A stretch of DNA of 37,203 nt from assembly GCA_913060655.1 (NCBI GenBank), contig CAJXTG010000015.1, positions 1 to 37,203 of the forward strand. The letters run 5' to 3'. Position numbers and translations under genes: made by a program. The notes beneath the pieces were generated by a model that was not told the DNA's origin, ran no database searches, and saw nothing but the letters and a program-made list of their open reading frames with translations. The DNA comes from an uncultured Nitriliruptoraceae bacterium (GTDB lineage Bacteria > Actinomycetota > Nitriliruptoria > Nitriliruptorales > Nitriliruptoraceae). Position 1 is the first letter of the stretch; every line of letters begins with the position of its first letter. This document shows, piece by piece, positions 26,255-33,127 of the stretch.

Positions 26255-26332
26255 TGGTAGCGGGGGCAGGATTTGAACCTGCGACCTCCGGGTTATGAGC
26301 CCGGCGAGCTGACCGAGCTGCTCCACCCCGCG
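26255..26332 (-). tRNA. Initiator tRNA-fMet (anticodon CAU)
   Basis: A tRNA on the minus strand with encoded CCA (26255-26257). The anticodon CAT is at 26297-26295, inside the stem-loop CGGGCTCATAACCCG. Its run of three G-C pairs next to the loop is the hallmark of initiator tRNA. The first base C1 faces U72, leaving the acceptor end unpaired as in initiators (C1-A72 in Escherichia coli). The T arm is GCAGGTTCAAATCCTGC. The total of 78 bases is one more than the usual 77, the extra base being a C in the D loop (CAGCTCGGTCAGCTCG). Confidence 0.95.
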
Positions 26333-30342: not shown

Positions 30343-31797
30343 ATGAGCGGCGCGATCGACTGGAGCCTCGCCGAGCGGGCGGCCCGCGAGGTCGCCCGCG
30401 ACGGCGACCGTGCGCCGACCGCCGAGGAGCGGGCCCGCGTCGAGGAGGCGTTCCGGCTCGCCGAGCACTGGCTCGACGCCGGCACGCTGCCCGCCCCGCC
30501 CGACGCGGGCCGCACGCGCGTGCTCGACCGGGACGGCTGGCTCGACGCGGCCATCCCGACGTTCATGCGCCTCATCGGCCCGCTGGCCGAGGCGACGACG
30601 GAGGCGCTCGTCGCGCTCGCCGGCCGCCAGCTCGGCGAGCTCGGACGGCTCCTCGAGGACTCCCCCGACGCGTTCGACGACGCGCTCGCGGGGCTCGAGG
30701 CGATGGGGTTCGACCCCGACCGGCTCGAGCCGCGCGACCTGACCGCGCTGGGCCTGTCCGAGGCGCAGGCGGCGCAGCTGCGCGACCAGCTGCAGGCGAT
30801 GCGCGCCTCCGGTCAGGACCTCGGCGACCTGCTGCGCGGGGCGCTCGGCGCGATGGGGCTCGGCGGTGCGGGGGGCCCGGCGGGCGCGGCCGACCCGTCG
30901 GCGGCGCTGCGACCGGCGGCGGCGACGCTCAACGCCCTGCAGGCCGGCCAGGTCATCGGGACGCTCGCCCGGCAGGTCCACGGCCATCGCGACCTGGGGC
31001 TCGCGACCGCGCCGCCGGCGACGGCCGGGCTCGTCGCCGTCAACGTGGCCGACACGTTCGCCGGCTACGACCTCGACGCGACGGAGGTCGCCGTCGTCCT
31101 CGCCGTGACCGAGGCGGCCCACCGGCGCCTCCACCACGCGATCGGCTGGCTCGACGCGCACGTCGTGACGCTCATCGGGCGCTTCGCCGCGGCGATGACC
31201 GTCGACGAGGAGCAGCTGCGGGGGCTCGCCGAGCAGATGGAGCAGCAGCTCGACCCCGACGACCCGGACGCGTTCCGACGTGCGCTCGAGCGGGCCGCAC
31301 GGCTGCGCCTCGAGCCGAACGCCGCACAGCGGCCGGTGCTCGCCCAGCTGCAGGTCGTCGTCGGGCTCGTCGGCGCGTGGGCCCGCCACGAGGCCCGCAC
31401 CACGCTGGCGGGTCGGCTGCCGGGGCTCGACCGCATCGAGGAGGTGCTGCGCCGGCGGCGGGCCGTGCAGGGTGACGGTGAGGAGCTGCTCGCGGGCCTG
31501 CTCGGGCTCGACCTCCGACCCGACGACGAGGAGGTGGCGGAGCGCTTCGTCGCCACCGTCCTCGACGTGCTCGGGACCCGCGGGCTGGAGCGGGCCCTCG
31601 CCCACCCCGAGAACCTGCCGGACGCGGACGAGCTGCACGACCCCGGCGCGTGGCTCGCCCGCAGCGTCGACGACGTGGAGGTGCCCGACGACGTCGCCGC
31701 GCTGCTCGACGACCTCGGGGAGGCACCGACCGAGGCGAGCGCGGACGAGCGGGACGCGGCCGCGACCGACGACGATCCGGACGCGGACGGGGCCTGA
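30343..31797 (+). CDS. DUF2342 zincin-like protein (putative hydrolase / F420-associated family)
   Basis: A 484-residue member of the actinobacterial DUF2342 family, sometimes annotated as zinc-dependent metalloprotease or coenzyme F420 biosynthesis-associated protein. Supporting features are the start AIDWSLAERAAREVA, the central helix TEVAVVLAVTEAAHRRLHHA followed by IGWL (the position of the degenerate zincin-type ExxxH element), and the C-terminal helical FVATVLDVLGTRGLERALAH. A full HExxH motif is absent, so catalysis is doubtful. A Gly/Ala-rich linker sits near residues 165-190 and an acidic tail ends the protein. ATG 30343 has GGAGGA seven bases upstream. Its divergence from the protease and UPF0182 genes repeats the mycobacterial arrangement. 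Confidence 0.85.
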   Translation: MSGAIDWSLAERAAREVARDGDRAPTAEERARVEEAFRLAEHWLDAGTLPAPPDAGRTRVLDRDGWLDAAIPTFMRLIGPLAEATTEALVALAGRQLGELGRLLEDSPDAFDDALAGLEAMGFDPDRLEPRDLTALGLSEAQAAQLRDQLQAMRASGQDLGDLLRGALGAMGLGGAGGPAGAADPSAALRPAAATLNALQAGQVIGTLARQVHGHRDLGLATAPPATAGLVAVNVADTFAGYDLDATEVAVVLAVTEAAHRRLHHAIGWLDAHVVTLIGRFAAAMTVDEEQLRGLAEQMEQQLDPDDPDAFRRALERAARLRLEPNAAQRPVLAQLQVVVGLVGAWARHEARTTLAGRLPGLDRIEEVLRRRRAVQGDGEELLAGLLGLDLRPDDEEVAERFVATVLDVLGTRGLERALAHPENLPDADELHDPGAWLARSVDDVEVPDDVAALLDDLGEAPTEASADERDAAATDDDPDADGA

Positions 31798-32126
31798 CAC
31801 GGGCCGGCCGGTCGGGCGGCGCACCGCGACCCCACGCCCGGCACGGTCAGTGCTGGACACGTGCGCGCACCGCGCGGCGTGCGGATCGCGGCCCCGATCC
31901 GACGCCTCCGGGGCCCTGTGGACGGGCTGTGGAACCGGTCGGCCCGACGTCCGGCCCGTGACCTGCGCTTCCGGTGCGTGGCCGCCCAGACCCGCCGGAC
32001 GGCCCCCACAGGCGATCTCCGACGGTCCACAGCACGTCCACATCGGGACCTCCGGTTGTCCACAGCCCGTGTGGAGAACTGGCGCCCGTCCGCCCCTGAA
32101 GCGACGTAGGTTCCGCGCGTCGAGGT

Positions 32127-32156
32127 CCCCAGGGGGGCCGGTCCGGACCCCAGGGG
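32127..32156. repeat. Two CCCCAGGGG dyads 21 bases apart
   Basis: CCCCAGGGG occurs at 32127-32135 and 32148-32156, two helical turns apart, with the 10-bp palindrome GGTCCGGACC (32140-32149) between them. A related dyad CCCACTGGGG lies at 32177-32186 and another palindrome, GGACCGGTCC, at 32243-32252. Equal helical phasing suggests a protein-binding array on one face of the DNA. Confidence 0.5.
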
Positions 32157-32188
32157 AAGGGGGTCCGCCGCCGGGTCCCACTGGGGAT

Positions 32189-32216
32189 CTTGCGTTCACG
32201 GGCTTGCGGTCACGGG
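32189..32216 (+). repeat. Tandem 14-bp direct repeat
   Basis: CTTGCGTTCACGGG (32189-32202) is followed immediately by CTTGCGGTCACGGG (32203-32216), identical at 13 of 14 positions. It lies between the DnaA-box cluster and the promoter of the HAD phosphatase gene and resembles a short iteron pair or an activator site. Confidence 0.6.
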
Positions 32217-32299: not shown

Positions 32300-33127
32300 G
32301 TGGGCGGACGTTTCACCCCGCCTCCCGTGCGCCCGCATGCGGCGGCGTTCTTCGACCTGGACCGGACCCTCATCTCCGGCTCGTCGACGTTCACGTTCGG
32401 CGTGGCCGCCTGGCGGGCGTCGCTGCTCGACGGACGGCGGCTCAGCGGCGACGCGGTCCGCGCCCTGTCGTTCCGGCTGTTCGGTGCGAGCGACGAACGT
32501 TCGGCGAGCACCCGCGACCGGCTGCTCGACGCCATCCGCGACGTGCCGGAGGAGGACCTCGCGGCGCTCAACGGGGTGATCCTGCCGCGCCTCGTGGAGC
32601 AGGTGCGGCCCGAGTCGCGCGAGCTGATCGAGATGCACCGCGAGGAGGACCGCGAGCAGTGGATCGTGTCGGCGTCCGCGCAGGGCATCGTCGAACCGCT
32701 CGCGCACGCCATCGGCATGACCGGCGGGATCGGGACCCGCATCGCCGTCCGTGACGGGGTGTACACCGGTGAGCTCGACGGCCCGTTCGTGTACGGCGAG
32801 GGGAAGGTCGAGGCGATCCGGACGATCGCGGAGGAGCGCCACTACGACCTGGAGCGCTGCTACGCCTACTCCGACTCGATCTCGGACCGGCCGATGCTCG
32901 AGCTCGTCGGGCACCCCGTCGCCGTCAACCCCGACCGCGGGCTGGAGGCGCTCGCCCGGGCCCGCGGCTGGCCGATCGTCATCTTCGCCCGGCGCACGAA
33001 ACGCATCCTGACCGCGTCGACCCTCGCCGGGGGGATGCTCGGCCTCGCCGCGTCCGCGTACGGGCTGGGGGTGCAGCGCGGCCGGACGAGCGTGCCGCCG
33101 CGGCGCCGGCGGCTGCTGTCACCGTGA
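32300..33127 (+). CDS. HAD-superfamily (subfamily IB) phosphatase with C-terminal hydrophobic segment
   Basis: A 275-residue HAD-IB hydrolase, related to SerB/CicA-like phosphatases. The nucleophile motif is FFDLDRTLISGSSTF (Asp19, Asp21); motif II is WIVSASAQG; motifs III and IV are EGKVEAIR and YAYSDSISDRPMLELVGHPV then AVNPD. Phosphoserine or a lipid/sugar phosphate is a possible substrate; sequence does not decide. A hydrophobic stretch near residues 235-258 (ILTASTLAGGMLGLAASAYG) could anchor it to the membrane, followed by an Arg-rich tail. The GTG at 32300 follows AAGGAG at six bases. The frame is open far upstream, but that is coding shadow and gene-free DNA. Its stop overlaps the next GTG. 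Confidence 0.88.
   Translation: MGGRFTPPPVRPHAAAFFDLDRTLISGSSTFTFGVAAWRASLLDGRRLSGDAVRALSFRLFGASDERSASTRDRLLDAIRDVPEEDLAALNGVILPRLVEQVRPESRELIEMHREEDREQWIVSASAQGIVEPLAHAIGMTGGIGTRIAVRDGVYTGELDGPFVYGEGKVEAIRTIAEERHYDLERCYAYSDSISDRPMLELVGHPVAVNPDRGLEALARARGWPIVIFARRTKRILTASTLAGGMLGLAASAYGLGVQRGRTSVPPRRRRLLSP

Follow-up and report, generated by a model that had tools for sequence, protein, structure and literature searches.

A conserved DnaA-box array and predicted hairpin RNA in the class Nitriliruptoria, with a possible link to the dnaA mRNA

A cluster of DnaA boxes between two genes

How bacteria keep DnaA at a suitable level is a core problem in cell-cycle research, and to our knowledge little is understood of it beyond a few model species. 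The locus described here may bear on that question. It lies in a 37,203-nucleotide stretch of DNA (hereafter the window), which is contig C15 of the 82-contig, 1,674,572-base genome of an uncultured Nitriliruptoraceae bacterium. Between the stop codon of a zincin gene (31797) and the start of a HAD hydrolase gene (32300), six copies of TCCACA, the core of putative DnaA boxes, occupy 162 bases on both strands.

31917-31922, minus strand: box core 1 (TCCACA), read from the sequence; forms an 11-bp pair with core 2 in most relatives
31928-31933, minus strand: box core 2, from the sequence and comparison with relatives
32026-32031, plus strand: box core 3, from the sequence and comparison with relatives
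32037-32042, plus strand: box core 4, 11 bp from core 3, from the sequence and comparison with relatives
32056-32064, plus strand: box 5, an exact TTGTCCACA with its TCCACA core at 32059, from the sequence and a genome-wide count
32070-32078, minus strand: box 6, TTCTCCACA, promoter-proximal, its TGTGGA 31 bp upstream of the -10 element

The initial annotation had listed these six cores, including the exact TTGTCCACA and the TTCTCCACA, and had taken them to exceed chance. All of the positions were confirmed, as was its view that the region is free of genes and that dnaA lies outside the window (it is on contig C25). TCCACA occurs 13 times in the window and 357 times on both strands of the genome. 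Applied to 162 bases, this genome-wide rate predicts 0.035 sites against the six observed, a Poisson probability of about 2e-12 per window of that size that is still negligible once the choice of window is corrected for. The exact TTGTCCACA has two copies in the genome.

The cluster is also conserved. Nearly all genomes of one family (f1, the families of the class being numbered here f1 to f5) have it around the orthologous HAD gene. In f1 the array is built from two 11-bp box pairs that face opposite ways and are separated by about 80-100 bp. Over all copies of the locus, in f1 and beyond, the number of boxes varies from three to seven. The four-box pattern of f1 is present in exactly one copy in each of 23 f1 genomes and is absent from the other families of the class, so the possibility that similar clusters are common did not hold up. 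In a search of all bacteria, the pattern outside Nitriliruptorales was found beside dnaA, dnaN, recF or gyrB at 83 of 104 loci. Because it mostly adjoins dnaA or dnaN elsewhere, the sites in the window look like real DnaA boxes.

Between the zincin gene and the boxes, a palindrome, CGTGCGAGCCTCGCACG, is kept in many f1 genomes (L007, L010, L012, L017, L020-L027). In the window it lies upstream of the first box (about 31858-31890) and is degenerate. A joint loss of HAD and cluster in genome G003 was set aside as an assembly gap, the zincin contig ending at that point.

A predicted promoter and hairpin RNA downstream of the boxes

Two further elements, both missing from the initial annotation, follow the boxes.

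32084-32089, plus strand: -35 position, GCCCGT (poor); TTGAC or TCGAC in relatives
32107-32112, plus strand: -10 element, TAGGTT; TACGGT or similar in relatives
about 32120-32194, plus strand: conserved hairpin RNA, predicted to start here, from model matches, covariation and fold
32153-32160, plus strand: the loop GGGGAAGG, which is invariant; its complement CCTTCCCC is at 3117-3124 of contig C25, in the dnaA leader

The promoter is predicted to be of the sigma-A type. Its geometry is similar from copy to copy: of 52 copies, 45 have the box nearest the -10 element 31-32 bp upstream of it, and the hairpin starts 2-11 nt after the -10 element. From this spacing, transcription is expected to begin at the foot of the hairpin. 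A box held at a fixed place relative to the -35 and -10 elements is also the layout of a DnaA-regulated promoter, which the arrangement in the window appears to match.

What follows the promoter behaves like a structured RNA. In an alignment built from strand-chosen copies, the hairpin of about 80 nt retains 95.6% of pair cells, and 13 of its 16 pairs have compensatory changes on both sides; none of 500 shuffles was as good. In the inner stem G-U outnumbers A-C roughly threefold, the bias that an RNA read from the plus strand of the hairpin should show. The window copy (32118-32204) has a fold of -60.4 kcal/mol (z -3.9). The loop GGGGAAGG is present in all 52 copies. A search of the RNA against Rfam 15 returned no family above threshold.

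Distribution of the unit

Boxes, promoter and hairpin make up a unit that was found in families f1-f5 of the class Nitriliruptoria, with one copy per genome. Outside the class, a phylum-wide search of 396 genomes recovered it only in G091, which belongs to a different small class. There too it follows zincin and comes with boxes and promoter. The two neighbouring genes in the window are as follows.

30379-31797, plus strand: Zincin_2 metallopeptidase gene, the upstream neighbour in most genomes
32300-33127, plus strand: HAD hydrolase gene, a neighbour in f1 and f2 and not required for the element

The unit is accompanied by HAD in f1 and f2 and stands without it in f3-f5. With a covariance model, three copies were recovered from a sister family; these follow zincin and lack HAD. 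When the regions downstream of zincin were read, the unit was seen in 14/14 f5, 4/4 f4 and 3/5 f3 genomes. The f2 unit lies beside HAD, 227 kb from zincin. In the f3 genome G047 the boxes and promoter are kept and the hairpin is absent; in G036, also f3, no part of the unit was found downstream of zincin.

Two side observations belong here. A conserved CTACCG-CCGGTAACCT motif stands after the hairpin and before the next gene in f3 and f5 (L297, L300, L302), and is possibly a further promoter or operator. The window also holds a tRNA gene (Rfam) at 26258-26332 on the minus strand.

A complementary motif in the dnaA leader

The hairpin loop is complementary to CCTTCCCC upstream of dnaA. The comparison of the RNA with targets covered dnaA leaders, and CTTCCCC is present in those of all 25 f1 and f2 genomes. 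In the same 25 a TTGC..-N17/18-TA...T promoter lies upstream of the motif, a result of the promoter scan that led us to abandon the idea that the motif is upstream of the dnaA promoter in most genomes. The dnaA leaders of f3-f5 have a similar promoter, except in G047.

One way to judge the motif is to rank all 6-mers after the leader promoters have been picked blind to it. CTTCCC comes out on top, above the DnaA boxes, both in f1 and f2 (23/24 leaders vs 1.5 expected) and in f4 and f5 (12/13 vs 0.84 expected). Among held-out genomes with a readable leader it was found in 17 of 18, including three of another class, the exception being G063. Another way is to slide each RNA against the dnaA leader of its own genome. 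Here, 6-mer matches peak at the loop in 37/39 and reach at most 15/39 elsewhere. The full CCTTCCCC is rare, occurring in 2 of 497 noncoding leaders of G025.

The predicted energy of the core loop-target duplex is about -10 to -12 kcal/mol. The leader site has an openness of 0.62 vs 0.49 with shuffled flanks, a moderate rise, and is more open in 26/37. In f4 and f5 it often sits within GCACC-GCUUCCC[U/C]-GGUGC, which can fold into a hairpin that places the site in the loop. G047, which has no hairpin RNA, carries GTTCCCC in its dnaA leader in place of CTTCCC, and may represent a natural loss of the hairpin.

In f1, conserved DnaA boxes (TCCACACCTGTGGA...TGTGGA) also lie between the leader motif and dnaA (e.g., L034, L035, L331). 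This suggests direct autoregulation as well.

A possible feedback circuit

What might such a unit do? The boxes, the promoter layout, the fold with its compensatory changes, the invariant loop, the leader motif and the independence from HAD can be read from the sequence, whereas binding by DnaA, production of the RNA, its pairing and any regulation are inferred. DnaA would bind the box array, including the box close to the promoter. From this place upstream of the -35 element it would control, and probably activate, transcription of the hairpin RNA, which would end after the hairpin. The apical loop GGGGAAGG would then pair over 6-8 bases with the CUUCCC(C/U) site in the 5' leader of the dnaA mRNA, in a loop-loop contact where the leader site is itself in a loop. 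The RNA would most likely lower the translation or stability of the dnaA mRNA, leading to less DnaA synthesis. Activation at the first step and inhibition at the last are the signs that we infer. In other words, DnaA may control its own production via this RNA, adjusting its synthesis as it binds.

That a DnaA-controlled small RNA pairs with the dnaA mRNA and so feeds back on initiation is, in our estimate, somewhat more probable than its negation. The wider claim is that this is a new circuit, in which DnaA acts through a dedicated box array on a hairpin RNA that pairs with its own mRNA, conserved across the class and in at least one genome of a second class; here we would give belief and disbelief equal weight. 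As far as we found, the open-access papers to which the literature comparison extended contain no earlier description of a DnaA-box-driven RNA aimed at dnaA.

Several observations weigh against the circuit. Some concern the RNA. The -35 element is poor in the window's own genus, which would fit a need for an activator. No distinct U-tract follows the hairpin, and in f1 a longer transcript could therefore have the RNA as its 5' end. Others concern the target. The match between loop and leader is only 6-8 bases long, in GC-rich genomes. The leaders of G040 and G063 have no exact CTTCCC, and in several genomes (G016, G045, G051) the leader site is predicted to be paired. A control with reversed leaders scores equally high, but is uninformative because the loop is G-rich and nearly symmetrical. 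The invariance of the loop core also means that covariation between loop and target cannot be shown. Finally, most f1 genomes have DnaA boxes and possible extra dnaA promoters downstream of the leader site, in which case the site would be present only on transcripts that begin at the upstream promoter P1.

If the circuit is real, DnaA would be under direct feedback through an RNA, by a route distinct from datA/DARS, Hda and SeqA, and the hairpin would be a new structured RNA family. It would also account for a DnaA-box cluster that a reading of the sequence alone takes for a stray origin. Because the unit is conserved across an actinobacterial class with cultured members (Nitriliruptor, Egicoccus, Euzebya), each step is testable.

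Other explanations for the boxes and the RNA

Perhaps the locus titrates DnaA, or works like datA or DARS, its boxes restricting or recharging the DnaA that they bind, with the promoter and RNA modulating DnaA binding through transcription and not through the dnaA mRNA. The initial annotation had suggested a datA-like titration site, and part of that suggestion stands: this is a conserved multi-box array outside oriC, one per genome. datA is itself regulated by transcription from a neighbouring tRNA operon, and the relative distance between cluster and dnaA is nearly the same in two complete f1 genomes (16.3% and 16.6%). However, the distance is 26-29% in G055 and G038, and the notion of a strictly conserved distance was dropped. 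The varying number of boxes does not favor titration either. Titration also leaves the conserved promoter and RNA unexplained, along with the invariant loop, the compensatory changes and the match to the dnaA leader. We regard it as unlikely.

What if DnaA controls the RNA, but the G-rich loop has another main target or a protein partner and the leader motif serves otherwise? A loop core that is short and invariant would suit such a role, and the reversed-leader control does not speak to it. Yet the top k-mer of dnaA leaders in two independent family groups is the exact complement of the loop, and the held-out genomes follow (17/18). This makes another principal target, or a protein partner, distinctly unlikely.

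Another idea is that the unit serves the HAD-Fic operon as its DnaA-controlled promoter and 5' leader. In f1 and f2 the unit does point at HAD, and in f2 it does so with zincin elsewhere. However, no HAD lies downstream of it in f3-f5, and the gene that follows it in L279 is convergent. A role solely as HAD promoter was rejected for this reason, and we consider the operon-leader idea very improbable. The DnaA-controlled promoter proposed in the initial annotation is thus supported in form, but its predicted transcript is a conserved hairpin RNA and the unit also occurs without HAD.

The origin of replication

It had also been proposed that the cluster is a chromosomal origin separated from dnaA, and a reversal of GC skew was to be looked for. 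Since the window's own genome is in 82 contigs, relatives were used. Raw GC skew from 20 samples was too noisy, so the complete relative G025 was sampled more densely, at 60 places of 20 kb each, and a two-arm skew model was fitted with correction for the coding strand. The best-fit origin is at 340 kb, next to dnaA (343.7 kb). For the lead coefficient, t is 5.7 at dnaA and 0.38 at the cluster (993.6 kb), some 650 kb away. Raw skew in G010 agrees, more weakly (2.15 at dnaA vs -0.14 at the cluster), and the fit to fourfold sites in that genome is less clear. No skew switch was seen at the cluster in either relative.

Four DnaA boxes arranged as two 11-bp pairs of opposite orientation do resemble the oriC of other bacteria, but the cluster differs from these in lying away from dnaA, in having no skew switch and in having no A/T-rich element: as the initial annotation had noted, none was found in the intergenic region, which has a GC content of 76.5%. 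Moreover, dnaA on contig C25 is next to rpmH, dnaN, recF, gyrB and gyrA, and the dnaA-dnaN spacer has DnaA boxes of its own. A separate origin at the cluster therefore has next to no probability. In the spacer (L002 4876-5125, contig C25; L034-L045) a conserved CCCCTAC-ACGACGG-like stretch comes after the boxes and looks like an unwinding region containing DnaA-trios; this spacer is likely the true oriC.

Comparison with known systems

We know of no promoter with a conserved hairpin RNA described for the DnaA-box clusters of Streptomyces coelicolor and Bacillus subtilis, which we compare by description. What these clusters share with the array described here is the presence of DnaA boxes outside oriC, and they are summarized as repressing untimely initiation (Smulczyk-Krawczyszyn 2006 and Okumura 2012, via PMC10950094).

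The loci datA, DARS1 and DARS2 of Escherichia coli are likewise noncoding multi-DnaA-box loci off oriC that feed back on DnaA, and datA is linked to the transcription of an RNA operon next to it (PMC4585315, PMC10950094). However, they act on the nucleotide state of DnaA together with IHF or Fis, and are not described there as encoding an RNA that matches dnaA (PMC4585315, PMC10950094).

On the RNA side, the comparison is with EcpR1 of Sinorhizobium meliloti, a trans-acting, Hfq-independent RNA that promotes decay of the dnaA mRNA (PMC4414408). It is encoded downstream of divK-pleD, belongs to the stringent-response regulon and also targets gcrA (PMC4414408). Compared by description, EcpR1 differs in being alphaproteobacterial and in having two stem-loop domains, and DnaA boxes are unmentioned in the paper (PMC4414408). 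What it has in common with the hairpin RNA is a conserved GC-rich loop directed at the long 5' leader of the dnaA mRNA (PMC4414408). By analogy, EcpR1 offers a precedent for regulation of a long dnaA leader through a conserved loop.
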